64,000 bases of DNA, from the NCBI GenBank assembly GCA_024653345.1, contig JANLFV010000003.1:116646-180645 (forward strand). The letters run 5' to 3'. The notes under the pieces are model-generated. The model had not been told where the DNA came from, searched no databases, and saw only the letters and a program-made list of their open reading frames with translations. Position 1 is the stretch's first letter; every line of letters starts with the position of its first letter. Shown piece by piece: positions 25,398 to 45,662 of this stretch. The stretch comes from Candidatus Acetothermia bacterium (GTDB lineage: Bacteria > Bipolaricaulota > Bipolaricaulia > RBG-16-55-9 > JANLFV01). Both the position numbers and the translations under genes were made by a program.

Positions 25398-25862
25398 TCA
25401 CCGCGGGCTTCCCCAGTCCCCCTCCTCATCGCAGGGGATCTGCTCCCACGCCTCGTCACGAAGGAGCGCCAGCAGCCTCCCCACGCCCCGGCTCACCTGC
25501 TCGCTCAGCCCTGCCCCCAGCTCCAGCTGCCGGGGCTGGACCCCGATGAGGACGATCTCGGGGCAATAATCTTCGAGGTAAGAGATGAGCGTGGAGATGG
25601 GGAGCGTGTGCGTGCTGATGAGCATCGTCTCCGCCCGCTCGGGCCGGAGGCGGCGGAACTCCCCGGGAGGGAGGCCGAGCTCCGCCGCGTCGACGATGAC
25701 CAGGAGCTCGGGGCTGTGGCGCTTTACGAGCGAGGTGAAGTTCTCCGGGGCGGTCCCGCAGTCAATCGCTTTCCAGCCTGGGGCGGCGAAATGGTTCGCC
25801 ACATACGGTCCCAGGCCGTCGTCCCCCAAAAGGTCGTTTCCCACACCGAGGAGCAGCTTCAT
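25398..25862 (-). CDS. hycI: [NiFe] hydrogenase maturation protease, HycI type
   Basis: 154 residues from the ATG at 25862. The family motifs GVGNDLLGDDGLG (nickel-sensing Asp), DAAELGLPPGE and STHTLPISTLISYLE with IGVQPRQLELG match HycI-type endopeptidases that trim the C-terminus of hydrogenase large subunits after nickel insertion. It is divergent from the hydrogenase genes. Its client is presumably the group 4 large subunit at 30695, which has an intact DPCxxC and a C-terminal tail; the Mvh-like subunit at 26907 has no such site. Confidence 0.88.
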   Translation of the reverse strand: MKLLLGVGNDLLGDDGLGPYVANHFAAPGWKAIDCGTAPENFTSLVKRHSPELLVIVDAAELGLPPGEFRRLRPERAETMLISTHTLPISTLISYLEDYCPEIVLIGVQPRQLELGAGLSEQVSRGVGRLLALLRDEAWEQIPCDEEGDWGSPR

Positions 25863-25981
25863 CGCGGCCCATTCTACCTGCTGGCCTCGGGCCGGGACCA
25901 TTGACCGAGATCATCCCCGAGGCCGATTTGAGTCATAGAATGGCCCTCACCGGGGCCATAAGATCGCCGGCGGAGGAGAGA

Positions 25982-26917
25982 TTGGCCAAGCCGAAGGTAG
26001 CCTTCTATTGGTGCGGGAGCTGCGGCGGCTGCGAGGCGACGATGCTCGACCTGGGCGAGGGCCTCCTGGACCTCGCGGGGAAGGTGGAGTTCGTCCTCTG
26101 GCCCTTGCTGCTGGACTTCACGAGAGAAGACCTCGAAGCTCTGGCCGACGGGGAGATCGCCCTCGCCATGATCAGCGGGATGCTCAACAACTCCCACCAT
26201 CGGGAGATGGCCGAGCTCCTCCGCAGGAAATCAAGGTTCGTCCTGGCCTTCGGGGCCTGCGCTCAGCTCGGAGGCGTCCCCGGGCTGTGGAACCTCTACG
26301 GCCAAGGGGCAGTCAGAGAGCACTATTCGCTCGACGGCTCGGACCCGCAGCAGGGGGGGCCGAGCCTCCTCCCCCAGCTCTGGGAGAGCGTCCAGCCCTT
26401 GGATCAGGTCATTGAGGTCGACTACTACCTCCCGGGCTGCCCGCCGCTCCCCCAGTGGATCACCATCGCCATGAACGCCCTCGTCGAGGGGAACCTTCCT
26501 CCCAAGGGGACGAACTTCGTCCCGGACAAGGCCCTCTGCTCCGTCTGCCCGCGGCGGGAGACCAAGCCGAAGAAGATCGTCCTGGAGAGGCTCAACCGGT
26601 TCCACCGGGCCGAGGTCGATCCGAGCCTCTGCCTCCTGGCCCAGGGGCTCGTCTGCTTCGGCCCGGCCACAAGAGCCGGCTGCGGGGCCCTCTGCATCCG
26701 CGGGAACATGCCCTGCACCGGCTGCTTCGGCCCGACCGATCGGGACAAGGATTACGGGACTCGGGCCCTCGCGGCCGTCGCCTCCCTCGCCTCCCTCGCC
26801 CTGCCTGGCGCGGGCGAGGGCCTGGCCGGGCCGCTCCCCGACCCGGCGGGGGTCTTCTACTTCTACAGCCTGGCGGCACTCGCCCTCAGCCGGGCAAGGA
26901 AGGGCCATGGCCGCTAG
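25982..26917 (+). CDS. [NiFe] hydrogenase small-subunit-like Fe-S protein (MvhG-like)
   Basis: 311 residues from TTG at 25982, chosen because GGAGGAG lies 4 bases upstream and the protein then starts AKPKVAFYWCGSCGGCE; an ATG at 25940 and a TTG at 25901 are alternatives. The proximal cluster ligands are present (C11/C14, FGACAQLGG, LPGCPPLP). A C-terminal Cys-rich part (CSVCPRRE; then CLLAQGLVC, GCGALC, CTGCFG) should bind one or two more [4Fe-4S] clusters, as in group 3 F420-non-reducing hydrogenases. It is coupled to the next gene by an 11-base overlap. It can carry electrons even though its large-subunit partner lacks a Ni site. Confidence 0.85.
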   Translation: MAKPKVAFYWCGSCGGCEATMLDLGEGLLDLAGKVEFVLWPLLLDFTREDLEALADGEIALAMISGMLNNSHHREMAELLRRKSRFVLAFGACAQLGGVPGLWNLYGQGAVREHYSLDGSDPQQGGPSLLPQLWESVQPLDQVIEVDYYLPGCPPLPQWITIAMNALVEGNLPPKGTNFVPDKALCSVCPRRETKPKKIVLERLNRFHRAEVDPSLCLLAQGLVCFGPATRAGCGALCIRGNMPCTGCFGPTDRDKDYGTRALAAVASLASLALPGAGEGLAGPLPDPAGVFYFYSLAALALSRARKGHGR

Positions 26918-28259
26918 GGAGATCCTCCTCGAGCCGACCAGATTGGCGGGCCAGGGGAGGGTGAGCCTCCTCCTGGACGGGGAAGGCCAGGTCGAGCGGG
27001 CTTACTTCCAGACCCTGGGGCTAAGGGCGTTCGAGAAGCTCGCTCAGGGCCGCCAGGCGGAGTATCTCCCTCAGCTCAGCTCCCGGATCTCCGGCCTGGC
27101 CTCCTGGCCCGAGCACCTGGCGGCCACGAAGGCCCTCGATGAGCTGTTCCAGGTCCAGCCCCCTCCGGCGGCGAAGAAGGCCCGCGAGCTGCTCCTGAAC
27201 ATCGCCATCCTGGAGAACCACCTCTTCCACTTCTTCTACCTCAGCGGGCCGGACATCTTCCTCGATCCGGGAACTCCCAAGGCCGAGCGAAGCATCATCG
27301 GGCTCATCGCTAAGCTGGGGCCGGAGCTGGGAAAGCAGGTCCTCGGGCTCCGCCGCGAGCTGCGGACGCTCCTCCTCCTGGCGGGCGGGAAGATCATCAA
27401 CCCCGTCCTCGGGCTGCCCGGCGGGATTGCTAAGCCCCTCTCCGACCAGAAGAAGTTCCAGGCCGCCGCGACGAAGGCCCTCGAGCTAGCCCTCCGGACC
27501 CTCGAGCTATTCCGCGAGCAGGCATTGACGAGCAGCGAATACCTGGATCTGCTCAAGGCCGATGCCTATACCCAGCAGACCTACTACCTCGGCCTAGTCG
27601 ACGCCGAGGGGAAGCTGAACTTCTATGACGGCCAGATCAGGGTCGTCGATCCTCAGGGGAAGGAGTGGGCCAAGTTCAGCGTGAGGGACTATGCTAGCCA
27701 GATCGACATCCATGTCGAGCCCTGGAGCTACAGCCGGTTCTTGTTCCTGAAGAAGGTGGGCTGGCGAGGCTTGGCCGATGGGCCTGCCTCCGGGCTGTTC
27801 ACCGTCGGCCCCTTGGGCCGCCTGAACGCTGCCGCAGGGCTGGCCACGCCCAAGGCCGCGGAGGCCCATCAGGAGCTCCTCGAGAGGCTGGGCGGGAGGC
27901 CAGTGCATTACACCCTGGCGAGCGATTGGGCGCGGATCGTGGAGATGATCTACGCCGCTGAGCGGATGGGGGAGCTGGCCAGTGATCCCCAGACCTTCGA
28001 TCCCAAGGTGCGGACCATCCCGAGCGCCGCTCCCAAGGAGGGCTTCGGCGCGCTCGAGGCTCCCGAGGGGACGGTGATCCACCACTATCGTGCGGACGAG
28101 CAGGGCCTGGTGACCGAGGCCCGGATCCTCCTGCCCGGGGAGATGAACAACGGGCGGCTCAACCTGGCGGCGGACAAGGCCGCGAGGGCCTTCTTCAAGG
28201 AAGGCGAGGTAGAACGAGTCTTCCTGCCCCTGCGCGGCCTGGCCTCCCAGGGCGGCTAG
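26907..28259 (+). CDS. Hydrogenase large-subunit-like protein without Ni ligands (MvhA-like)
   Basis: 450 residues that align through their length with group 3 [NiFe] large subunits, for example EAPEGTVIHHYRADEQG and the LNLAADKAARAFF region. Both metal-binding motifs are gone. The N-terminal RxCGxC is RISGLAS (residues 60-66), keeping the following H and LAATKALDEL. The protein ends at VFLPLRGLASQGG, where DPCxxC would be. There is no cysteine anywhere in the 450 residues. It therefore cannot hold a NiFe centre and needs no maturation protease. A scaffold or quinone/flavin-type electron relay like NuoD is one possibility. The gene is full length, in frame and in host codon usage, so it is not a fresh pseudogene. 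Confidence 0.8.
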   Translation: MAAREILLEPTRLAGQGRVSLLLDGEGQVERAYFQTLGLRAFEKLAQGRQAEYLPQLSSRISGLASWPEHLAATKALDELFQVQPPPAAKKARELLLNIAILENHLFHFFYLSGPDIFLDPGTPKAERSIIGLIAKLGPELGKQVLGLRRELRTLLLLAGGKIINPVLGLPGGIAKPLSDQKKFQAAATKALELALRTLELFREQALTSSEYLDLLKADAYTQQTYYLGLVDAEGKLNFYDGQIRVVDPQGKEWAKFSVRDYASQIDIHVEPWSYSRFLFLKKVGWRGLADGPASGLFTVGPLGRLNAAAGLATPKAAEAHQELLERLGGRPVHYTLASDWARIVEMIYAAERMGELASDPQTFDPKVRTIPSAAPKEGFGALEAPEGTVIHHYRADEQGLVTEARILLPGEMNNGRLNLAADKAARAFFKEGEVERVFLPLRGLASQGG

Positions 28260-28266
28260 CGACGCC

Positions 28267-28295
28267 TTGACTTAGGCCAAGAGAGGTGCTATAAA
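28267..28295 (+). promoter_or_regulatory. Promoter of hydrogenase-Mrp operon
   Basis: TTGACT (28267-28272), 17 bases, TATAAA (28290-28295), between the Mvh-like gene and the membrane-subunit gene. Thirteen tightly packed genes follow. Confidence 0.65.
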
Positions 28296-28331: not shown

Positions 28332-29255
28332 ATGAGATACGTCCTGGAATTGGTCATCTATCCTGGCTTCATCTTCGCCACGGCCGTCGGCCTTCTGACG
28401 AGCTGGTTCGAGCGGAAGGTCTCGGCCCTCGTGCAGTGGCGGAAGGGGCCGCCCGTGCTCCAACCGCTCTATGACCTGGTCAAGCTGGCGGGGAAGGAGA
28501 CCCTCGTCTCCGAGCGGGCGAACAGCGCCGGCTTCCTCCTCGCCCCGTTCCTCGGGTTCGCCGGGGCGATCGTGGCCTCCCTGATCCTGTGGAACGCGAA
28601 CCTCGGGCGGTCGTTCCTCGGCGACTCGATCGTCCTGCTCTACCTGCTCGTCCTCCCCGCGCTCGCGGTGATCCTGGGCGGGCTGGCCTCGGGGAACCCG
28701 ATCGCGATCCTCGGCGCAACGCGCGAGCTGAAGCTCGTCCTGGCCTACGAGGTCCCGCTCGTCCTGGCGGTGATCGTCGCCATCCTCAAGGCTGATTCGC
28801 TCCTCCTCCACCGGCTTGGCAACACCATCACCATCGGAAGCCTCTCGGGAGTGCTGGCCTTCTTCGTCGCGCTCCTGGCGGTCCAGGTGAAGCTCGGCTT
28901 CGCCCCGTTCGACATCGCCGAGGCGGAGACGGAGCTGATCGCCGGCCCTTACATCGAGTATTCCGGCCCGCCGCTGGCCGTCTTCAAGCTCACGCACGCG
29001 ATGCTCCTCTTCATCTTGCCCCTGTTCCTTGTGACGCTCTTCCTCGGGGGGATCGACTTCCGCGGCCTAGGCTGGTTGTGGGGGATCTTGAAGTATCTCG
29101 GGGTGGTGCTCGCGATCGTCCTGATCAAGAACACCAATCCCCGGCTGAGGATCGATCAGGCGATCCGCTTCTTCTGGCGGTATGGGCTCGGCTTGGCCCT
29201 GCTGGCCCTGGTCTTGGCGATCATAGGAGATCAAGTTGGCCTCCGCTGGCTCTAA
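28332..29255 (+). CDS. Membrane anchor subunit of group 4 hydrogenase (NuoH/MbhM/EchB-like)
   Basis: 307 residues with eight hydrophobic segments. NuoH-family signatures include SWFERKVSALVQWRKGPP near the N-terminus, the PLYDLVKLAGKE loop and KLGFAPFDIAEAETELIAGPYIEYSG, whose acidic residues line the quinone-like cavity and ion path. In Mbh/Ech enzymes this subunit joins the hydrophilic hydrogenase to the antiporter-like arm. First gene after a clear promoter; overlaps the small-subunit gene by 20 bases. Confidence 0.9.
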   Translation: MRYVLELVIYPGFIFATAVGLLTSWFERKVSALVQWRKGPPVLQPLYDLVKLAGKETLVSERANSAGFLLAPFLGFAGAIVASLILWNANLGRSFLGDSIVLLYLLVLPALAVILGGLASGNPIAILGATRELKLVLAYEVPLVLAVIVAILKADSLLLHRLGNTITIGSLSGVLAFFVALLAVQVKLGFAPFDIAEAETELIAGPYIEYSGPPLAVFKLTHAMLLFILPLFLVTLFLGGIDFRGLGWLWGILKYLGVVLAIVLIKNTNPRLRIDQAIRFFWRYGLGLALLALVLAIIGDQVGLRWL

Positions 29256-29715
29256 GACGAGGACCTCTCCCTGGCAGGCTTGGGGGATCTCCAGGTCTCC
29301 CTGGGTCTACCATCTGGCCACGGGGACCTGCAACAACTGCGATATCGAGCTGTTGGACTGCCTCACGCCCCGGTATGATCTCGAGCGGTTCGGGATCAAG
29401 CTGGTCGGCTCGCCCCGCCACGCCGATGTCCTGATGGTCACGGGGATGATGAACCGGAAGTGCCTCCCGCGGTTCATCGCGGTCTGCCGCCAGGTCCCCA
29501 AGCCTTACATCATCGTAGCTCTCGGGGCCTGTGGCGCGAACAAGGGGATCTTCCACGACAGCTACAACACCGTCGGCCCGGTAGAGCGGGTGGTCCGGGA
29601 GATCATGAAGGAGGACACGATCGTGGTCAATGTCCCCGGCTGCCCGCCGAAGCCCGAGGCGATCATCCTCGGGGTGGTCAAGGGTTTGAAGCTCCTGCAG
29701 GAGAGGCGGAGATGA
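29236..29715 (+). CDS. Group 4 hydrogenase small subunit (MbhJ/EchC/NuoB-like)
   Basis: 159 residues from TTG at 29236 with GGAGAT just upstream. The proximal [4Fe-4S] ligands are C32 and C35 (TCNNCDIE), C99 (GACG) and C135 (PGCPPKPE), the NuoB/MbhJ pattern. It passes electrons between the ferredoxin subunits and the NiFe site of the large subunit. Overlaps the next gene by 4 bases. Confidence 0.92.
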   Translation: MASAGSKTRTSPWQAWGISRSPWVYHLATGTCNNCDIELLDCLTPRYDLERFGIKLVGSPRHADVLMVTGMMNRKCLPRFIAVCRQVPKPYIIVALGACGANKGIFHDSYNTVGPVERVVREIMKEDTIVVNVPGCPPKPEAIILGVVKGLKLLQERRR

Positions 29716-30695
29716 AGGTCAAGATCGCCAATCGCGAGGCCGAGATCGAGGTGAAGCAGGGGGCGAAGCTCCTCGAGGCCCTGGCGGAGAAGGGCTACCG
29801 GCTGATGAGCAGCTGCGGTGGGGAGGGGAGTTGCGGGATGTGCCGCGTCAAGGTCCTCGAGGGGCTGAAGGAGCCGAAGCCCGAGTATTTCGGCCCCCTG
29901 AGCGAGGACCTGCGGAAGGCCGGCTGGGTCCTGTCCTGCCAGCTTAAGGTCGAGAGCGACCTGGTGATCCAGCTTGACGAGAAGCTCGTTGAGCGCTGGC
30001 CGGGCGAGGGGGTGGAGGCGGTCGAGCCCGGCGCGGCGGAGCTCTCGCCGCTGGGGCTGAAGCTCCGTCGAGCCCTCCCCGGGTTCGGCTGCGGCGGGTC
30101 GATCTGCGGCTACGCCTCCTGCGCCCTCTATGCCGAGGCCCTGGCTCGGGGGGAGGCCTCTCCCGAGGCCTGTCTCCCCGGCGGGGAGCCGGTCCGCGCG
30201 GCCTTGAAGAGGATCATCGCGGCGGAAAAGGAGCAGCAGGCCTTGATCGCCGGGCTGCTGGAGGGGATCGCCGCGCAGGTCAAGCTCGAGAGGCGGCTGG
30301 ACCGGCGGATCTACCTCCGTGTCGAGCGAGCTGCACTGGAAGAGGTGGCCAGGCACCTGATCCTGGAGAAGGGCGGGCGGCTGGCGACGGCCTCGGGCGT
30401 GGACAAGCCTGATTCCAACGAGATCGAGCTCTTGTATCACATCTCCTTCGACCGGGCGGGGCTACTGGCCTCCGTCCGGACAACGCTCCCGCGCACGGAG
30501 CCCCGGTCCGCGAGCGTGGCCTCCTTCCTCCCCGCCGCGGAGTTCATCGAGCGGGAGATCCGCGAGTTCTTGGGCGTAGAATTCATCGGCCACCCCCGCC
30601 CGGAGCGGCTGATCAAGGCCGAGGAGATCCCCGACGATGTCTACCCGCTGCGGAAGGACTTCAAGCTCGAGGACCTCAACGGGAGGAGGAAATAA
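29712..30695 (+). CDS. Fusion: [2Fe-2S] ferredoxin + RnfB-type [4Fe-4S] + NuoC/EchD-like subunit
   Basis: 327 residues. Residues 1-90 form a plant/adrenodoxin-like [2Fe-2S] ferredoxin with C35, C41, C44 and C76. Residues 115-160 form an RnfB/ASKHA-type [4Fe-4S] module (PF04060-like) with C127, C132, C137 and C154 and the following LPGGEP. Residues 195-327 are the 30-kDa NuoC/MbhK/EchD domain (AAEFIEREIREFLGVEFIGHP and the C-terminal PLRKDF). In known Mbh and Ech complexes the NuoC-like protein stands alone. The start ATG overlaps the upstream stop (ATGA), and the large-subunit gene starts in this gene's stop (TAATG), so the fusion is built into the complex. It would add two clusters to the electron-input arm. 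Confidence 0.88.
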   Translation: MKVKIANREAEIEVKQGAKLLEALAEKGYRLMSSCGGEGSCGMCRVKVLEGLKEPKPEYFGPLSEDLRKAGWVLSCQLKVESDLVIQLDEKLVERWPGEGVEAVEPGAAELSPLGLKLRRALPGFGCGGSICGYASCALYAEALARGEASPEACLPGGEPVRAALKRIIAAEKEQQALIAGLLEGIAAQVKLERRLDRRIYLRVERAALEEVARHLILEKGGRLATASGVDKPDSNEIELLYHISFDRAGLLASVRTTLPRTEPRSASVASFLPAAEFIEREIREFLGVEFIGHPRPERLIKAEEIPDDVYPLRKDFKLEDLNGRRK

Positions 30696-31891
30696 TGCCG
30701 TCGAAGATCCCGATCGGGCCCTATCACCCGCTGCAGGAGGAGCCAGAGCACTTCATCCTCACCATCGAGGGGGAGCAGGTCGTGGATGTCGATGTGAGCA
30801 TCGGCTACAACCACCGCGGGATCGAGAAGCTGGCCGAGAGTAAGACCTACGATCAGGTCCCGTTCCTCGTCGAGCGGATCTGCGGGATCTGCTCGATGTC
30901 CCATCCCCTGGCCTTCTCCCTCGCGGTGGAGAACTGCGCCGGGATCGAAGTCCCCCCGCGGGCGAATTACATCAGGACGATCCTCGATGAGATCAGGCGG
31001 CTCCACTCGCATCTCCTCTGGGCCGGGCTCGCGGGCCACTTCCTGGGATATAACACCGTCTGGATGTGGGCCTGGAAGTATCGTGAGCCCTTGCTGGAGC
31101 TGAGCGAGCTCCTCACCGGGAACCGGAACCATTACGGGATGATCAAGGTCGGCGGAGTGAGAAGAGACATCCCCCCGGAGCACTACCCCTTGATTCGGAA
31201 GGCACTGGACGAGCTGAAGCCGAAGCTGGAGATGCTCTACGGCGCGGTCCTCGACGACCCGGTCCTGCGGGCCAGGCTCGAGGGGGTCGGCCACCTCTCG
31301 AGAGAAGATGCCATCCGCTATGGTGTGCTCGGGCCGACGGCAAGGGCCTCCGGCGTGGACATCGACATCCGGCGGGATTATCCCTACGGCGCCTCGGATA
31401 AGGTCGAGTGGCGGGTGATCACCAGCGAGCGGGGGGACCTGCTCGCAAGGGTCGAGGTCCGCTTGCTCGAGTGCTTCGAGTCGATCAAGCTGATCGAGGG
31501 CTGCCTCGAGCAGATGGAGCCCGGCCCGATCTCCGCTGATGTCCCGAGGAAGATCCCCCCGGGCGAGGGGATCGGCCAGGTCGAGGCCCCCCGCGGGGAG
31601 TGCTTCCACTATGTCGTGGCGAACGGGACCGATAAGCCGGAGCGGCTGAAGATCCGGGCCCCGACCTACATGAACCTCCCCTCCTTCCGGGCCACCTGCC
31701 TCGGGGAGACCTTGAGCGATGTGGCGATCATCCTCGCGGGGATCGACCCCTGCTACTGCTGCACCGAGCGGCTGGTCCGGATCAAGGATGGGAGGGGCGA
31801 GCGCCGCCTCAGCTTTGAAGACTTGCTCAAGCTGAGCTGGGAGAAGACCGCCCGCCTGCGGAAGGAGGCCAAAGATGGCTGCGTGGAGTGA
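30695..31891 (+). CDS. Group 4 [NiFe] hydrogenase large subunit (MbhL/EchE-like)
   Basis: 398 residues. Both NiFe ligand pairs are intact: C63 and C66 in ERICGICSMSH and C353 and C356 in DPCYCCTER. The tail of about 40 residues after the second motif is a plausible maturation extension, and a HycI-type protease is encoded at 25398. NuoD-like landmarks such as IGYNHRGIEKL are present. This is the catalytic H2-producing or H2-oxidising centre of the complex, unlike the nearby cysteine-free homologue. Confidence 0.92.
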   Translation: MPSKIPIGPYHPLQEEPEHFILTIEGEQVVDVDVSIGYNHRGIEKLAESKTYDQVPFLVERICGICSMSHPLAFSLAVENCAGIEVPPRANYIRTILDEIRRLHSHLLWAGLAGHFLGYNTVWMWAWKYREPLLELSELLTGNRNHYGMIKVGGVRRDIPPEHYPLIRKALDELKPKLEMLYGAVLDDPVLRARLEGVGHLSREDAIRYGVLGPTARASGVDIDIRRDYPYGASDKVEWRVITSERGDLLARVEVRLLECFESIKLIEGCLEQMEPGPISADVPRKIPPGEGIGQVEAPRGECFHYVVANGTDKPERLKIRAPTYMNLPSFRATCLGETLSDVAIILAGIDPCYCCTERLVRIKDGRGERRLSFEDLLKLSWEKTARLRKEAKDGCVE

Positions 31892-33707
31892 GCCCGGACT
31901 CTGGCTCTTGCTCCTCCCCTTCGGCGGAGCGATCGTCAGCCCGCTCCTTGGCTTGGCAAGCCGCCGGCTCCGGAACGGCTTCGTCGGGCTGGCCGCGCTC
32001 GGGACGCTCGCGCTGGGGCTGCTCGCGCTCCTCCGCCTCGACGGGGGAAGGCTCGCGCTCGTGAGCCTTCCCCAGTATCACATCATCTTCCGGCTCGATC
32101 CGTTGAGCGCGCTCATGGCCACGCTCATCTCGCTCTTGGGCGCGGCAGCGGCGTTCTTCTCCTTCCGATACATGGAGCACTATCCCCGGCTCAACCAGTA
32201 TTACGCCCTCCTGATGCTGTTCCTCGGGGCGATGATCGGGGCGGTCCTGGCGGGGGAGCTCTTCACGATGTTCGTCCTCTGGGAGCTGATGACGCTCGCG
32301 GCCTTCTTCCTGGTGATCTTCGATGAGCGGCCGGAGTCGATGGCTGCGGGGATCAAATACCTGGTGATGAGCGAGGCCGGGGCGCTGGCGATGCTCGCGG
32401 GGATGATCCTGATCCAGCAGCTTGCCGGCATCACCGACATCCTGGAGTTGAAGCGGACCCGGGCCCTGGCGGACCCTTGGCTCGCCTCGATGCTCTGGCT
32501 CTTCCTTCTCGGGCTGGGGGTGAAGGCCGGGATGGCGCCACTCCACACCTGGCTCCCGGACGCCCACCCCGCAGCCCCGTCGCCGATCTCAGCCCTGCTC
32601 TCCGGCGTGATGATCAAGGTCGGGCTCTTCTGGATGCTTCGCATCTTCTTTGAAATGCTCCCACCGATCCTCACCTGGCAGCTTGTGTTGGGATTGCTCG
32701 GCGCGGGCACGATCCTCGTCGGGGGGCTGGTGGCCCTTGTCCAGACCGACATCAAGCGGCTGATCGCCTACTCCTCCGTCAGCCAGGTGGGTTATATCAT
32801 CCTGGGGCTGGGACTCGCCACGAGCTTGGGCACCGCCGGTGCGCTCTATCACCTGGTCAACCACGCCCTCTTCAAGGGGCTGCTCTTCCTCGGGGCCGGG
32901 GCGATCATCTACCGCTGTGGGACGCGAAACCTCGAGGAGCTCGGGGGCCTGGCCCGGAGGATGCCTCTCACCTTCGCCTGCTTCCTCATCGCGGCCTTAT
33001 CGCTCGCGGGGGTTCCCCCGCTCGGCGGGTTCTACTCCAAGTGGATGATCTATCAGGCCCTCGTGGAATCGAAGCTCGCGATCGCCCCGCTCCTCCTCGG
33101 TGCGGCCCTCGCGGGGACGGCCCTAACCCTGGCCTACATCCTGAAGGTGGTCTTCGCCGCATTCTTCGGGGAGGAGACCGCGGCGAGCAGGGATGCCCGG
33201 GAGGTGGGACCGACGATGGCGATTCCGCTGGGGCTGCTGGCCGCGCTCTGCATCCACCTCGGGGTCTATCCGGCCTGGCCAATCCGGCACCTGATCGAGC
33301 CGGCCGTCGGCTGGTTCCGGCTCGTGGGGGTCTGGAACGCCCCGCTCGCGACCGGCCTTCTCCTCCTCGGCTTGGCGGTCGGGCTGCTGGTCTACCTCTT
33401 CCCGCGGGCGATCAAGCTCCGGCCCGTCCCGCTCTTCCTCGGGGGGGAGTCGATGGCCGGCGAGGACACGCGCGTCCGCGGGACGGAGATCTACGGTAGC
33501 CTGATGAGCCTCACGGCTCTAGCGAAACTCTACCACCAGCAGAGTCTAGGCAAACTGGATATCTACAATATCACTCGGGGGATCCGGGGCGGGCTGACCA
33601 AGGCCCTCCGCTGGGCCCACAGCGGCCTTCTGCCGAACTATGTCGCCTGGGTGGCGGTCGGGCTGATCGTCCTCCTGTTCTTAATCCTAGGGGGTGGGCC
33701 AAGATGA
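31875..33707 (+). CDS. NuoL/MrpA-N-like antiporter subunit
   Basis: 610 residues, about 14-16 transmembrane segments. The ion-channel signature is complete: an acidic residue in FVLWELMTL, lysines in GVKAGMAPLHTWLPDAHPAAPSP and DIKRLIAYSSVSQVGY, and HALFKGLLFLGAGA. The C-terminal extension beyond the core fits MrpA/NuoL. With the next gene (DUF4040 plus MrpA-C-like) it makes up the equivalent of MrpA, here split in two. Overlaps the large-subunit gene by 17 bases. Confidence 0.88.
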   Translation: MAAWSEPGLWLLLLPFGGAIVSPLLGLASRRLRNGFVGLAALGTLALGLLALLRLDGGRLALVSLPQYHIIFRLDPLSALMATLISLLGAAAAFFSFRYMEHYPRLNQYYALLMLFLGAMIGAVLAGELFTMFVLWELMTLAAFFLVIFDERPESMAAGIKYLVMSEAGALAMLAGMILIQQLAGITDILELKRTRALADPWLASMLWLFLLGLGVKAGMAPLHTWLPDAHPAAPSPISALLSGVMIKVGLFWMLRIFFEMLPPILTWQLVLGLLGAGTILVGGLVALVQTDIKRLIAYSSVSQVGYIILGLGLATSLGTAGALYHLVNHALFKGLLFLGAGAIIYRCGTRNLEELGGLARRMPLTFACFLIAALSLAGVPPLGGFYSKWMIYQALVESKLAIAPLLLGAALAGTALTLAYILKVVFAAFFGEETAASRDAREVGPTMAIPLGLLAALCIHLGVYPAWPIRHLIEPAVGWFRLVGVWNAPLATGLLLLGLAVGLLVYLFPRAIKLRPVPLFLGGESMAGEDTRVRGTEIYGSLMSLTALAKLYHQQSLGKLDIYNITRGIRGGLTKALRWAHSGLLPNYVAWVAVGLIVLLFLILGGGPR

Positions 33708-34267
33708 TAACAACGCTCTACATCTTTATCTTCTTCATCATTGCCGCGGCGCTCGTCGCCGTGGAGACGCCCCATGCCCTCTCGGCGGTCATCGCCCTGG
33801 GGGCGGTCGGCTTCGGGCTCTCGATCGTCTGCCTCTTCATCGGCGCCCCGGACATTGCCATCACCCTGGTCGTGGTGGAGATCCTCGTCTTGATCCATAT
33901 GATCCGCGCCACGCTCCAGCGGGACATCATCACGATCATGGGCCCCTTCTCCCGACTGAATGTGATCGCCACGATGCTCATCTTCGGGATCGGGGTCGCC
34001 TTCTTCTACCAGGTGGCGCTGCAGTTGCCCCCGTTCGGCCAGGCGGTGATGACGCTGATCGAGAACAGCCCCTCGCGCTTCTATCTCGAGGAGAGCCTCA
34101 ACCAGACCGGCGCCGCGAGCGCGATCACCGCGGTCCTCCTCGACTTCCGGGCCTACGACACCCTGGGCGAGGCCACGGTCATCTTCACCGCGATCATCGG
34201 GGCCTTGGCGCTGCTCCGCAGGACGGTGAAGCGGGAGAGGAAGGGGAAAGGAGCGGGAGATGCCTGA
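33704..34267 (+). CDS. MbhD-MbhE-like (MrpA C-terminal) subunit
   Basis: 187 residues, about five transmembrane segments. The first part (ALVAVETPHALSAVIALGAVGFGLS... and PDIAITLVVVE) is the DUF4040/MbhD domain. The second, ending YDTLGEATVIFTAIIGALALLR, is the MbhE/MrpA C-terminal segment with its conserved GE. Pyrococcus Mbh encodes these as two small genes; here they are one. Overlaps both neighbours. Confidence 0.85.
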   Translation: MITTLYIFIFFIIAAALVAVETPHALSAVIALGAVGFGLSIVCLFIGAPDIAITLVVVEILVLIHMIRATLQRDIITIMGPFSRLNVIATMLIFGIGVAFFYQVALQLPPFGQAVMTLIENSPSRFYLEESLNQTGAASAITAVLLDFRAYDTLGEATVIFTAIIGALALLRRTVKRERKGKGAGDA

Positions 34268-34724
34268 GAAGGAAGGAATGAGCTTGATCGTCAAGGAGGT
34301 TGCCCGGCTGATCGCGCCGCCGATCTTCATTTTCGGCCTCTATCTCACCCTCACGGGCCACCTCACCCCCGGCGGGGGCTTCCCCGGCGGGGTGGTCTTC
34401 GCCTGCGGGTTCATCCTGGTCGTGCTGGCCTACGGGGGGAAGCGGGCGTTCCGCCGGCTCCCGCCCGAAGGGGCCTCGAAGTATGACAGCGGCGGGGCGC
34501 TCCTCTTCCTGGTCATCGGTCTCATCGGATCGCTGGTCGGCGGCCACTTCCTCTACAACTTCATCCAGGCCGCCCTCCCGGGAACCGTCTTCCACCTGCT
34601 GAGCGCGGGGACGATGCCCCTGATCAACATCGCCATCGGGATGAAGGTCGCCGCCTGCCTCTTCATGGTGGTAATGGCCCTGACCCTCTTCCGACTGGCG
34701 GGCGAGAAAGGCGGTGAGAGCTGA
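34260..34724 (+). CDS. mrpB: MrpB/MbhF-like subunit
   Basis: 154 residues (or 148 from the second Met), four transmembrane segments. The MnhB-family core LYLTLTGHLTPGGGFPGGVVFA is unmistakable. Part of the Na+/H+ antiporter module. Starts within the stop region of the upstream gene and ends where the MrpC gene starts. Confidence 0.9.
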   Translation: MPEKEGMSLIVKEVARLIAPPIFIFGLYLTLTGHLTPGGGFPGGVVFACGFILVVLAYGGKRAFRRLPPEGASKYDSGGALLFLVIGLIGSLVGGHFLYNFIQAALPGTVFHLLSAGTMPLINIAIGMKVAACLFMVVMALTLFRLAGEKGGES

Positions 34725-35071
34725 TGCTATACACGCTGGTCTTCGCACTGTTCCTCATCGGCCTCTACGCGACGATCACCAAGCGGAACTTGATCAAGAT
34801 CATCATCGGGGTGATCATCATGGAGCAGTCGGTCAATCTCTTCTTGCTCCTCGTCGGCTACCGCATGGGCGGGATGGCCCCGATCCTGGACAAGGAGACC
34901 TCGTTGCAGGAGTTCGTCGCCAGGGCAGTCGACCCTCTGCCGCAGGCCCTGGTGATCACCTCCATCGTCATCAGCCTCGGGACGATCGCGCTGATGGTGG
35001 CGATCGCCATCAGGATCTACGAGAAATACGGGACCTACGACATCGCGGAGATCCGGAGGTTGCGCGGATGA
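34724..35071 (+). CDS. mrpC: MrpC/MbhG (NuoK-like) subunit
   Basis: 115 residues with three transmembrane segments, the NuoK/MrpC size. The family run KRNLIKIIIGVIIMEQSVNLFLL with the membrane Glu is present, as is the DPLPQALVITSIVISLGTIAL signature. Overlaps mrpD by four bases. Confidence 0.92.
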   Translation: MLYTLVFALFLIGLYATITKRNLIKIIIGVIIMEQSVNLFLLLVGYRMGGMAPILDKETSLQEFVARAVDPLPQALVITSIVISLGTIALMVAIAIRIYEKYGTYDIAEIRRLRG

Positions 35072-36588
35072 GCTGGGTCTTCCTCCTCGTAGCCCTGCCC
35101 CTCGGCGGAGGGTTCCTCCTCCCGCTCTTCGACAAGCGCTGGGCGGAGAGGTGGCTCCCCAGGGGCTCGGAGGCCCTCACTCTCGCCCTGACGCTGGCGA
35201 CCGCCGGCCTAGCCTTCGCCACGATCGGCTGGGAGGGGATCTACCGGATGGGCGGCTGGTCCCCGCCACTGGGGATCAACCTTGTGGTCGACGGCCTCTC
35301 CTCGCTGATGCTGGTCGTGATCAATTCGATCGCCCTCTTGGTCACGATCTACTCCTTCAAATACATGGAGGACTACACCCCGACGGGGAAATACTACAGC
35401 CTCTTCCTCCTGATGCTCGCGGGGATGAACGGGGTGATCCTCACCGGGGACATGTTCAACCTCTTTGTCTTCCTCGAGATCGCCTCGATCGCCTCCTACG
35501 CGCTCGTGGGCTACCGCCGCGGGGCGGTGGAGCTGGAGGCGGCCTTCAAATACCTGATCCTCGGGTCGATCGGCTCAGCGTTCATCATCTTCGGGGTGGG
35601 ACTGCTCTACGCCGCGACGGGCCAGCTGAACATGGCCCAAGTCTCGCGGAACCTCGCCGGCCAGGGGCGTGGGGTGATCGGCGGGATCACCGCGGCCTTC
35701 TTCCTCGTCGGCTTCGGGCTGAAGGCGGCCCAGGTCCCGTTCCACGCCTGGCTCCCGGACGCCCACTCCTCCGCGCCCAGCCCGATCTCAGCGATCCTCT
35801 CGGGCGTGCTCATCAAGGCCCTGGGGGTCTACTGCCTGGCCCGGGTCTTCTTCAATGTCCTGGGGATCGACGAGATCGAGGGGAACATCCTGATGTGGGG
35901 CGGGACGCTCTCCATGGTGGTCGGGGCGCTCTTGGCCGTCGGGCAGGAGGACCTGAAGCGGCTGCTCGCCTACTCCTCGATCAGCCAGGTGGGCTACATC
36001 GTCCTGGCCCTGGGGATGGGCGGGATCATGCTCTCGCGAGGCGAGCAGGCCCTGGCGAGCCTGGCCCTAGTCGGGGCGCTCTTCCACTTGATCAATCATG
36101 CGGCCAACAAGGCCCTCTTGTTCCTCGCCAGCGGCGCGATCGAGGAGCAGGCCCAGACCCGCCAGCTCGGGGAGATGGGCGGCCTCTTCCACCGGATGCC
36201 GGTCACGGGGACGACTACCCTCTGCGGGGTCCTCTCCATCGCGGGGATTCCGCCGTTCGCCGGGTTCTGGAGCAAGCTGATCATCATCGTCGCTGCCCTG
36301 TGGGGCGGGTTCTATGCCGTGGCCACGCTGCTGATCGCCACGAGCGTCCTCACCCTGGCCTATTACATGCGCGTTGAGCGGGAGGCCTTCTTCGGCGCTG
36401 TCCCCGAGAGGCTCCAGAAGGTCAAGGAGGCCCCAGCCGCCATGGCCTGGGCGATGGGGCTCCTGGCGGCCGGCGCGGTCGGGCTGGGAGTGCTCTACCT
36501 CCCGGGGCTGCGGGAGATGGTCCTCCAGCCGGCGATGAATGTCCTCTTGGAGGGGCTGCGGTATGCCCAGATGGTCCTCGGAGGTTAG
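35068..36588 (+). CDS. mrpD: MrpD/MbhH (NuoN-like) antiporter subunit
   Basis: 506 residues from the ATG at 35068 (ATGA overlap with mrpC), about 14 transmembrane segments. Channel residues: Glu in LFVFLEIASIASYALVGY, Lys in GLKAAQVPFHAWLPDAHSSAPSP and in DLKRLLAYSSISQVGY, and NHAANKALLFLASGAIEE. Together with the NuoL-like gene at 31875 the complex has two antiporter-type subunits. Confidence 0.92.
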   Translation: MSWVFLLVALPLGGGFLLPLFDKRWAERWLPRGSEALTLALTLATAGLAFATIGWEGIYRMGGWSPPLGINLVVDGLSSLMLVVINSIALLVTIYSFKYMEDYTPTGKYYSLFLLMLAGMNGVILTGDMFNLFVFLEIASIASYALVGYRRGAVELEAAFKYLILGSIGSAFIIFGVGLLYAATGQLNMAQVSRNLAGQGRGVIGGITAAFFLVGFGLKAAQVPFHAWLPDAHSSAPSPISAILSGVLIKALGVYCLARVFFNVLGIDEIEGNILMWGGTLSMVVGALLAVGQEDLKRLLAYSSISQVGYIVLALGMGGIMLSRGEQALASLALVGALFHLINHAANKALLFLASGAIEEQAQTRQLGEMGGLFHRMPVTGTTTLCGVLSIAGIPPFAGFWSKLIIIVAALWGGFYAVATLLIATSVLTLAYYMRVEREAFFGAVPERLQKVKEAPAAMAWAMGLLAAGAVGLGVLYLPGLREMVLQPAMNVLLEGLRYAQMVLGG

Positions 36589-36591
36589 AAG

Positions 36592-37083
36592 ATGAGATGG
36601 GCTTGGGCGTTCGTGCTCTCGTTCGGCTTCTGGCTCCTCCTCACCTGGCCTCCGGGCTGGCAGGAGCTCTCCGTCGGGCTGGTCGCCGCAGTCGTGGCCA
36701 CGACCTTCTTCGGGAGGATGCTCCGGCTGAAGACCGTCCGCCGCCTCTTCGACCCCCGCCGCTACTTCTGGGCGATCTGCTATGTTCTAGTGCTCATCTA
36801 TCGGATCTTCGTGGCCAACCTCGATGTGGCCTATCGCGTCCTCCACCCCGAGATGCCGATCAAGCCGGGGATCGTCAAGGTGAAGACCGTCCTCCAGAAC
36901 GAGGTGGCCAAGACGGTCCTGGCCAACTCGATCACCCTCACCCCCGGGACGCTCTCGGTCGACATCACCGATGACGGCTACCTCTATGTCCACTGGATCA
37001 ACGTCCGCGCGATGCAGGAGGAGGAGGCCTCGAGCTACATCGTTGGCCGGTTTGAGTCGCTCTTGAGGAGGATCTTCGAATGA
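36592..37083 (+). CDS. mrpE: MrpE subunit
   Basis: 163 residues, two or three N-terminal hydrophobic segments then a soluble domain. MnhE hallmarks: NLDVAYRVLHPEMPIKPGIV and NSITLTPGTLSVDI. Three bases after mrpD; overlaps mrpF by four bases. Confidence 0.92.
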   Translation: MRWAWAFVLSFGFWLLLTWPPGWQELSVGLVAAVVATTFFGRMLRLKTVRRLFDPRRYFWAICYVLVLIYRIFVANLDVAYRVLHPEMPIKPGIVKVKTVLQNEVAKTVLANSITLTPGTLSVDITDDGYLYVHWINVRAMQEEEASSYIVGRFESLLRRIFE

Positions 37084-37346
37084 CCGCTTATGATGTGACC
37101 TTCTTTGCGCTCCTCGGCGCATGCTGCTTCCTCTGCCTCTACCGGATCGCCTTCGGGCCGACCCCGCCCGACCGCGCGGTGGGGATCGACATCCTGGGGA
37201 TCGTCATCGTGGGGTTCTCCGCGCTGTCCGCCCTGATCACGGGGAAGGATTACTACATGAACATCGCCCTGGCCTGGACGCTGATTGCCTTCATCGGGAC
37301 GATCGCCCTGGCGAAGTTCCTCGAGGGGAGGAGCTACGATGAGTGA
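37080..37346 (+). CDS. mrpF: MrpF subunit
   Basis: 88 residues, three transmembrane segments, with the MnhF pattern LYRIAFGPTPPDRAVGIDILG. The order mrpE-F-G matches canonical Mrp operons. Confidence 0.92.
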   Translation: MTAYDVTFFALLGACCFLCLYRIAFGPTPPDRAVGIDILGIVIVGFSALSALITGKDYYMNIALAWTLIAFIGTIALAKFLEGRSYDE

Positions 37347-37689
37347 GCCGATCGGGATCACCTTGATCTTCATTGGCGTCCTGTTCGACCTCCTGGGCTG
37401 CATCGGGCTCATCCGCCTCCCCGATGTCTATAACCGCCTCCAGGCGGCGACGAAGACCGTGACCTTGGGGACCTGCCTGATCCTGACCGGCGTGGCGGTC
37501 GCCTCGGGCACGGTCACCATCCAGATCAAGGCGATGCTCGCCCTGGCGCTCGTCCTGATTGCCTCGCCCACAGCCGCCCACGCCCTGGCCCGCGGGGCCT
37601 ACTCGCTGGGGGTGAAGCTCTGGGAGAAGAGCGTCGTTGACCGCTACGGCGAGGACCTGGGGAAGGAGGGAGAAGATGAGGCGGCCTAA
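37339..37689 (+). CDS. mrpG: MrpG subunit
   Basis: 116 residues from the ATG at 37339, three transmembrane segments plus a charged tail. The MnhG core GCIGLIRLPDVYNRLQAATK is conserved. Overlaps mrpF by 8 bases and the ferredoxin gene by 14. Confidence 0.92.
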   Translation: MSEPIGITLIFIGVLFDLLGCIGLIRLPDVYNRLQAATKTVTLGTCLILTGVAVASGTVTIQIKAMLALALVLIASPTAAHALARGAYSLGVKLWEKSVVDRYGEDLGKEGEDEAA

Positions 37690-38113
37690 GCTGCGGGAGC
37701 TCGGGGAGGCCCTCCTCGCCCTCCTCCAGGGGCCCTACACCACGAAGTTCCTCGCCGCGCCCGCACCGGCCCCGACCTACCGCGGCGCGCCCCGCTACTA
37801 TGAAGATCTTTGCATCGCCTGCGGGACCTGCTTCCGCGTCTGCCCCGCCAACGCCATCTCGCTCGAGGAGCTGGGGGAGCGCGAGGGGGTCAAGTGGCGC
37901 CGCCTGCGGGTGGACTACGGCCGATGCATCTTCTGCGGGACCTGCGAGGCCAACTGCCCCGTCAACCCCAAGGCGATCCGCCTCTCCAACGAGTATGACC
38001 TCGCCTATGTCGGGGACGAGGACCACTACTCCGTCTCCGAGGTCCCGATCGGGGGGAAGAAGGTCCTTCAGAAGGGCTCCTCAGCCCTGCGTTCAGGTTC
38101 AGGCTCAGCCTGA
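37676..38113 (+). CDS. 2x[4Fe-4S] ferredoxin subunit (MbhN/EchF/NuoI-like)
   Basis: 145 residues from the ATG at 37676 with GGAGG upstream. Two CxxCxxCxxxCP clusters are present: CIACGTCFRVCP and CIFCGTCEANCP, in a NuoI-like setting (KFLAAPAPAPTYRG then YYEDLC). It links the external donor to the small subunit. Last gene of the operon; its final 46 bases overlap the 3' end of the convergent topA. Confidence 0.92.
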   Translation: MRRPKLRELGEALLALLQGPYTTKFLAAPAPAPTYRGAPRYYEDLCIACGTCFRVCPANAISLEELGEREGVKWRRLRVDYGRCIFCGTCEANCPVNPKAIRLSNEYDLAYVGDEDHYSVSEVPIGGKKVLQKGSSALRSGSGSA

Positions 38114-40468: not shown

Positions 40469-43400
40469 TTACTGCCTCCTCACCTCGATGTTATCGATGA
40501 CCAGATCGCCGTTGAAGTCGTCGATCGTAGCCACGATGCGCGGTTGCAGCACACGATAGTTGCTGAAGGCATATATTACGATGTAGCGCCGATCGTCCGC
40601 CGCGCCATCACTGTCAAAGTCCCCCTCTCTGATGTCGCGGGGCTTGATGATCTCCACCCGCGCATCGAGCAGCACGTTGGAGTCTATATCGATCGCCACT
40701 GAATCGGCTATGCCATCCCTATCGCTATCCTCCAGCCAGAGCCGGTCGTCCTCCTCCCCGTCCAGGTCTAGATCCGCGGTGAAGGCAATGGGATGGTCGT
40801 CGGCGTCAAGGAGATCAGTCCCGGCCACAACTTCATCCTCATCCGCGAACCCGTCGCCATCTCTGTCCACCGGTTCGCCCCGCAGCGGCCAAATGATCGG
40901 GATCAACGGCGAGTTGCAGGGGTCAGGATCGAGCCCGTCGATGAACCCGTCGGAGTCGGAGTCGCGGTTCGTCGGGTCCAAGAGCGACACGGAGATGGTG
41001 GTGAAGTCCGGGCCGTCCTCATCAAGGCGGCCGTCCAAGTCATTATCAAGGCCATCTGGTGGGTCCTCATCGATCAGCCCGTCACCATCGTTGTCCAGGT
41101 TCGTGATGGGGGCTGGCGCTGGGCAGACGTAGGCAACCTCTGCTCCGTCCAGGAGCCAGTCGTTGTCCGTGTCGTGATCGAGCGGATTCGTCGGGTTGAA
41201 CGGGAAGGCGTGTGGCGGGTTAGGCTGGTTCCGTTCCGCGTAGTCAGAGAGCCCGTCGTGGTCAGTGTCAAGGTCGCAGGGGTCGGTCTCTGTTGGGTAA
41301 GGGATCGGGGGGCCAGGGAGGGGGTCAGCATGATCGAACTCACTGGGCAGAAAGTCGAAGTTCCCATCGTGATTGCGGTCCTCATATCCATCGGACAGTC
41401 CGTCGCCATCACTGTCCGGGTTGAGAGGGTCCATGCAGCCGCCTGCCGGGTAGACAACAGTGATCGGACGCCCGAAGAGGTCCTCAGCCGGGATCATCCC
41501 CTGGCGTGAGCTAGAGAATCCCAGCTTCTCTACACCGTCGCCCTCTCCATCGCCGTCGGTATCGAACTGATTGGGATCAGTCTCTCCCGCGTCCACTTTG
41601 CCGTTGCCGTTCTCATCCTCACCAAGTCCGTTGGGGTTAGGGTGGTCGCCTATCTGGCCCACGCTGCCAGTGCCGCCGAAGCACAAGGGATTGGTGCCCG
41701 AGTCATCGATCCCCGCGGAGGGCGTGTGGCCTCCGCCGTCGCATAGGCCGTCGCCATCGGTGTCAGCCGTGACCGGGTTAGTTGTATTCGTGCTGAAGAC
41801 CTCCACCCCGTCACCCAAACCGTCGTCATCTGTGTCGAAGTCCAGCGGATCGGCGGGAATCGGGCCTTGGCCCAAGAACTCACTGTCGACACGGCCGTCG
41901 TTATCCGTATCCCAGTCGAGGGGATCCGTGCCGATCTGGAACTCCTCGCCATCGAGCACTCCATCACCGTCGGAATCAGGATCGCAGATGCCAGTCACAA
42001 GTTCCCCGACTTCCAGCTCGCCCGCGTTGTTCTTATCCGGAACAGCCGGGGTCTTGTTCGGCGTCGGTGCGTCGGCTACATCGGCCACTGCGTCTTCTCT
42101 GTCACGCAAGCCGTCGGCATCGGAGTCGAAGCTGTTCGCATATCCATCCAGCAGAGTCCCGGAGCCATTGTCCGTGTTGCACCCGGGCCGGAACTCAATG
42201 TTGTCGTTGATCCCATCACCATCGGTGTCCATCTGCAAGGGATCAGTCTCGTCTAGTGGGCCAGGTGGGTTGTGGAACTGCGCTGTGCCGCTGAGCGCCT
42301 CTTCACAGTCGGACAGGCAGGCGATAGTGCCAGCGCCACTATGCCCAGCCAACAGTGGGGCGCTACCAGGAGCCCGGCCAAAGATGACGCCATCCGCAGT
42401 ATCGCCATCGGTGTCAGGGTTCAGCGGGTCGGTGAAGAAGGTCTGGATCTCTTCCGTATCGCTGAGCCCGTCGTTATCACTATCCCAATCCCCCGCGTCT
42501 GTCCCCTGGGCAATCTCCTTACCGTCCAGGGTGCCGTCACCGTCAGAGTCAGCATCGCAACGGTTGACTCTGAAATCGTCATTCAATTCGCCGTCATTGC
42601 CTGCAGCAGCGGTGACGTCCGTGTCTGCCTCAACTCCATCCTGAAGAGCATCATCATCGGAGTCATCGTCGTTGATGAACGGACAGACAGTGTCGCGGAT
42701 TGTCCCATCGACTGTGCCGCCAGGAAACTCGATAGCATCTCCAAGCCCGTCATCATCGGTATCCGGGTCGAGCGGATCACTGACCTGCTCGAACTGGCGG
42801 TCTGGGAAGGCCCCGCTCAGGATGAAGACCTCGTCATAGTCCGCGAGCCCATCACCATCAGAATCGGCAGCCGAGCAGGTCGTGAAGGTGCGGTTCTGCT
42901 CTTCATTGTCCGAGAGGCCATCGTTGTCAGTATCGGGGTCGGCCGGGTGGCAGCCCGAGCCGCTACCCAGCTCGAAGCCGTCGCTGAGGCCGTCGCCATC
43001 CGTGTCAAACACCGTTGGGTCAGGCTCACCTTCTCCCGAGCAATCGCCGAAAGGAGCCAGCGTGCAACCCGAGACTCCAAAGATCCCATCGCCATCAAGA
43101 TCCTCCGCCCCATCGAGGATCTCATCCCCGTCGGTATCGGGATTCATGGGGTCGGTCCCCGCGCTCGCCTCACTCCGAACGATCCCCGTGACCGGGTGTA
43201 AGGGACAAGCCGAGGTGCCGTCACCATCGACATCCCCGCCATCCCCGTCGCAGAGGCCGTCGTCATCGGTATCCAGGTCCAGGGCGCTTGTGCGCTGGGC
43301 CAAGTCCTGTGGATCGGTCTTCCCGTCGTCATCGGTGTCCTTGTCGCACATGTCCGTGAGCTGGAACGTGGACTCAAACCCATCCGATGTCCCCACTCCG

Positions 43401-45646: not shown

Positions 45647-45662
45647 ATTGTCTCCCTCCATT

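Follow-up and report, generated by a model that had tools for sequence, protein, structure and literature searches.

A ligand-free group 3c hydrogenase heterodimer next to the operon of an Mrp-linked group 4 hydrogenase in a Candidatus Acetothermia genus

The window, a stretch of 64,000 nucleotides from a Candidatus Acetothermia genome (G000; phylum Bipolaricaulota), contains adjacent genes for a hydrogenase small and large subunit, which we call SSUx and LSUx. Profile, fold and tree all place the pair in group 3, within the Hdr-linked subgroup 3c. Judged from its sequence, it is a duplicate of an Hdr-linked group 3c heterodimer that arose within this lineage and lost its active site. The ligand-free pair is so far known from just two genomes, both in the same genus.

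Sequence and predicted structure of the pair

The features of the pair, in coordinates of the window, are the following.

25982-26917, plus strand: SSUx, an MvhG-like small subunit with a TTG start and an 11 nt overlap with LSUx (alignment, model)
26907-28259, plus strand: LSUx, an MvhA-like large subunit of 450 amino acids free of cysteine (translation, profiles, PDB matches, AlphaFold model)
27084-27104, plus strand: the former L1 ligand motif RISGLAS, residues 60-66 of LSUx, in place of RICGVCP (translation, alignment)
28224-28256, plus strand: the C-terminal vestige LPLRGLASQGG of LSUx, with DPCxxCATH and the cleavable tail deleted (alignment)

LSUx scores 46.8 bits against the Pfam NiFeSe_Hases model (cut-off 25.8), and 267.9 bits against the NCBIfam VhuA model over residues 6-431, which is well below the equivalog cut-off of 800. 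Both profiles place it inside the hydrogenase superfamily. PDB chains of MvhA, VhuA, HydL and HoxH match it over its full length, with E values from 7e-74 to 3e-59. The predicted fold is that of a group 3 hydrogenase large subunit. The AlphaFold model has a mean pLDDT of 90.9 and pTM of 0.93, and superimposes on MvhA (5odc_F) with Z = 50.4 and 1.8 Å over 433 residues; the single-chain model of SSUx (mean pLDDT 81.7) matches MvhG with Z = 32.8. An earlier, sequence-only reading of this DNA had described LSUx as a full-length homologue of group 3 (Mvh-type) large subunits with no cysteine, and the translation (0 of 450 residues), the VhuA profile and the PDB matches bear this out. Annotation by homology would name a gene such as this a hydrogenase.

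The same reading gave the first ligand motif as RISGLAS instead of RxCGxC, as we also find in the translation and alignment, and the C-terminal DPCxxC as absent. The latter holds with a refinement. LSUx ends just upstream of the position of DPCxxCATH, and the motif is thus deleted rather than mutated. The Glu and His of RxEGH are lost as well, and the arginine of PRG (now PEG). As a reference for conservation we used 64 active MvhA relatives, in which 110 positions are conserved at a level of at least 95%; 68 of these are retained both in LSUx and in its orthologue from a second genome (G001). The two proteins have alike lost C62, C65, H16, N129, E268, R387 (of the PRG motif) and T411, and both lack the whole of DPCxxCATH at the C-terminus along with the tail behind it. 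LSUx, unlike the orthologue, has also lost E14 and H69. The losses fall on the NiFe site and on what we take, from general knowledge of [NiFe] hydrogenases, to be its canopy. Each of the 64 active proteins has at least four cysteines (mean 6.9), so the lack of any in LSUx must reflect loss of the four invariant residues and not chance. With these residues gone, LSUx cannot hold a canonical NiFe site. Compared with an active group 3c large subunit, it has the fold in the predicted model and the place in 3c by VhuA profile and tree, and lacks the four cysteine ligands of L1 and L2.

The small subunit has kept its ligands. The TTG start of SSUx is preceded by GGAGGAGA. All 12 near-invariant cysteine columns of MvhG are kept in the alignment, in agreement with the earlier statement that the partner retains its Fe-S ligands, and SSUx has the ligands for three [4Fe-4S] clusters, as expected of a group 3c small subunit. 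The hydrogenase CxxC and all other ligands of the proximal cluster are present. Conservation extends to 64 of the 73 conserved positions, and the medial/distal half is nearly unchanged. Conserved positions altered in both species are 43, 47, 65, 69, 72, 103 and 178, together with a short gap near 122. Judging from other small subunits, the loop of residues 65-72 should face the active site of the large subunit.

Orthologue, selection and origin

G001, a Candidatus Acetothermia MAG (contig JAPWVC010000015.1), is the second of the two genomes sampled from this genus. Its orthologue of LSUx is 65% identical and lies at the same locus, beside the same group 4 operon. Its L1 motif reads RINGFAP, PRG has become PDG, and DPCxxC is missing. 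It does contain two cysteines, at positions 273 and 376; the description 'no cysteine' is therefore true of the window protein only, and the feature common to both is the missing ligands. The sequence-only reading had raised the prospects that homologues in other genomes all keep the four cysteines, or that an assembly error had removed them here. Neither is the case, since the ligands are missing in the second species too. A pseudogene is ruled out by the open frame in two species and a dN/dS of 0.34.

That value, for LSUx against its orthologue, has a bootstrap range of 0.27-0.43. The corresponding figure for SSUx is 0.29; between the active MvhA proteins of these species it is 0.18. By these ratios LSUx is under purifying selection, and is less constrained than active MvhA.

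LSUx and its orthologue group together in the large-subunit tree with 100/100 support, on a stem of 0.63, inside a wider clade (99/98) that also contains the two active MvhA proteins of G000 and G001. This nesting indicates duplication in this lineage. In the small-subunit tree SSUx lies near the MvhG of the genus, with support of only 92/78. The active MvhA copies of both genomes lie in HdrA/FlpD loci. In G000 (contig C11, L041:2124-10650) this locus has DHODB-type Fe-S and GltD-like proteins encoded between HdrA and FlpD-MvhG-MvhA. HypD is found in both genomes, so the loss of ligands does not mirror a loss of hydrogenase maturation.

Homologues were taken from 80 loci in genome contigs, found with two short peptide patterns and not exhaustive, plus about 48 loci of relatives. 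No ligand-free large subunit was found in these beyond G000 and G001. The other homologues, about 120, keep the L1 and L2 cysteines wherever the sequence covers the motifs; the exceptions are L017, L087, L093, L098, L099, L153 and L154, whose rows are truncated, interrupted or masked at one of the motifs, and L038, which was read in a wrong frame. Among the other loci compared, an MvhGA pair adjoins group 4 genes in G001 only.

The neighbouring operon and a possible function

The pair is flanked by the following features.

25398-25901, minus strand: HycI-type hydrogenase maturation protease, divergent, a conserved neighbour in G001 (profile search)
28267-28295, plus strand: promoter-like TTGACT-17-TATAAA between LSUx and NuoH (sequence)
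28332-29255, plus strand: NuoH-like membrane anchor of a group 4 hydrogenase (profile search)
29236-29715, plus strand: NuoB-like subunit (profile search)
29712-30695, plus strand: NuoC with N-terminally fused Fer2 [2Fe-2S] and FeS (4Fe-4S, RnfB-type) domains (profile search)
30695-31891, plus strand: NuoD-like group 4 large subunit with ligands intact, RICGICS and DPCYCC (profile search, sequence)
31875-37689, plus strand: Mrp/Mnh/Mbh-type antiporter subunits
37637-38113, plus strand: NuoI-like two-cluster ferredoxin subunit

The pair had been described as lying next to an active group 4 hydrogenase. It does adjoin one, and the NuoD-like subunit has its ligands intact, with the qualification that a conserved promoter-like element lies between. 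The element was read from the sequence and is below the strict rule of our promoter scan; TTGACC-17-TATAAA occupies the same place in G001. The pair may therefore be a separate transcription unit.

The order common to both genomes is the divergent protease, SSUx, LSUx, NuoH, NuoB and Fer2-NuoC. In the window NuoD, the Mrp subunits and NuoI come next; the G001 contig stops after NuoC. Past the protease the window has tRNA genes and, by sequence, a gene for a Clp-type ATPase, and G001 has a second group 4 operon. As this flank differs between the genomes, the conserved block starts at the protease. Within the operon of the window a single protein (33704-34267) fuses MbhD and MbhE domains, and further on the minus strand (40469-45661) encodes a protein of 1730 amino acids in which DxDxDG repeats of a calcium-binding-like type are numerous. 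G000 has another Mrp-linked group 4 operon (contig C30, L042:13120-14988), in which NuoB is joined with a GltD/NfnL-like NAD(P)-flavoprotein in one protein of 622 amino acids.

Across the phylum set, the ligand-free pair and the full-length Fer2-NuoC fusion are each confined to these two genomes of the genus; their co-occurrence amounts to one phylogenetic event. Relatives in the order have Fer2/FeS domains of about 50% identity in operons that look like Rnf/Nqr. Relatives in the class with the closest group 4 operon (L147, L148) have HydB-like Fe-S, FAD/NAD and ferredoxin genes upstream of NuoH. There is no HdrA or FlpD gene at the SSUx/LSUx locus. FlpD is encoded elsewhere in both genomes, in G000 only at C11 and C8. 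At C8 (L179:6447-12480), and at C58 of G001 (L180), there is another HdrA, fused to a FlpD domain and accompanied by HdrC/HdrB-like genes, with no adjoining hydrogenase; these loci adjoin 2-oxoacid oxidoreductase-like genes and genes that look MetF-like by eye.

Our best reading, which we put forward tentatively, is that the pair is a Ni-free group 3c dimer made up of a scaffold and an Fe-S wire, in electron exchange with the group 4 complex. LSUx would be the structural scaffold, which covers the proximal cluster and holds the small subunit in the way that NuoD serves NuoB; SSUx would be the electron wire. We are less confident that this wire has the adjacent Mrp-linked complex as its redox partner; both this partner and the direction are what we infer. 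Contact could perhaps be made at the [2Fe-2S]/[4Fe-4S] domains that NuoC carries as a fusion, placed like FlpD/MvhD in the Hdr-Mvh complex, and the membrane complex would link this flow of electrons to the transport of ions. The loss of ligands and canopy with the fold kept, the purifying selection, the cysteines kept in SSUx, the conserved block in both genomes and the co-occurrence with the Fer2-NuoC fusion count for this reading. Adjacency, the intact Fe-S ligands and the redox genes at the same place in relatives support coupling to the group 4 hydrogenase. Against coupling, the promoter-like element allows separate transcription, and FlpD, with which MvhG usually associates, has its genes away from the locus. 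A wire also needs a partner at both ends, and the proximal side has no known one. In its most specific form, which we regard as possible but doubtful, a Ni-free electron-transfer pair with the hydrogenase fold would have originated a second time, independently and outside group 4 and complex I, as a 3c dimer serving as an electron conduit that feeds the Mrp-linked, ion-pumping hydrogenase via the NuoC-fused domains.

Other roles can be considered. The pair might dock on a soluble HdrA-FlpD complex (e.g. HdrABC-FlpD at G000:C8 or G001:C58) as an alternative Ni-free module, the group 4 adjacency being incidental. Its descent from an HdrA/FlpD-linked hydrogenase, the near-unchanged medial/distal region of SSUx and the second, hydrogenase-free HdrA in both genomes would all suit this, yet the locus has no Hdr or FlpD gene and its conserved neighbour is the group 4 operon, and we think it unlikely. 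It is rather improbable that the emptied pocket is a new active site, where the proximal cluster would reduce a substrate, for example a polysulfide or a small quinone-like acceptor, in the manner of MBS or complex I. Loss of the NiFe site did produce a substrate cavity in those two (PMC7684303), and LSUx also lacks the C-terminal plug. However, only three of ten former ligand and canopy positions are identical between the orthologues, against 65% overall (binomial p = 0.025, for a set picked by hand), and this variation argues against a conserved catalytic pocket. In addition SSUx retains the hydrogenase CxxC and every proximal ligand, unlike complex I (adjacent Cys) and MBS, making a catalytic proximal cluster less likely. 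For these two reasons we favor scaffold and wire over a new pocket.

A role in regulating or assembling the group 4 hydrogenase, or in its maturation, with no electron transfer, would fit the conserved divergent pairing with the HycI-type protease and the lack of a cleavable tail on LSUx itself. It is nonetheless very unlikely, as SSUx has kept all of its Fe-S ligands, which suggests that it works in redox chemistry. Least of all do we believe that the pair is decaying towards loss. LSUx does evolve about twice as fast as active MvhA in the same two species (0.34 against 0.18), but frames are open and synteny is kept in both, dN/dS is far below 1, the 68 of 110 conserved positions are kept in both proteins, and the small subunit is as well preserved as the active one.

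Comparison with known systems

Large-subunit homologues that lack nickel have been described as relatives of group 4, namely MbxL, NuoD and the like (PMC6085437), Ehr (PMC6349859) and MbsL (PMC7684303). The sequence-only reading had put such proteins on the group 4/complex I side, and the papers that we found describe them for group 4 only. No Ni-free group 3 large subunit was found in the literature within our reach, which excluded most subscription journals; by the papers found, a Ni-free member of group 3 is new and those of group 4 are already known. The ancestor of complex I is believed to be a membrane hydrogenase whose NiFe site was lost stepwise (PMC7684303). A recent loss in group 3, with the active parent in the same genome, would open the step from catalyst to electron-transfer scaffold to direct study, and could show what goes first, what the small subunit keeps and what partner is gained.

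The split VhuA/VhuU hydrogenase resembles LSUx in that VhuA too ends before DPCxxC. VhuA keeps the L1 cysteines and VhuU supplies the other pair. An arrangement of this kind was rejected for LSUx, as window positions 20-40 kb contain no separate DPCxxC or DPCxxU peptide except that of NuoD.

The pair is like MvhG/MvhA of the group 3c HdrABC-MvhADG complex (PDB 5odc) in sequence, predicted fold, small-large gene order, the three-cluster small subunit and direct ancestry. It differs in having no NiFe ligands, C-terminal plug or cleavable tail, and in a locus that lacks Hdr and FlpD and adjoins an Mrp-linked group 4 operon. With NuoD, FpoD, MbxL/MbsL and Ehr it shares a large-subunit fold without Ni ligands, an Fe-S small-subunit partner and a link to Mrp-type subunits. 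Unlike these group 4 relatives, LSUx is not of group 4 descent, given 268 bits with VhuA against about 20 or less with NuoD models, and its place in the MvhA tree. The proximal cluster has adjacent cysteines in complex I and has lost one ligand in MBS (PMC7684303), whereas that of SSUx keeps the CxxC of a hydrogenase.
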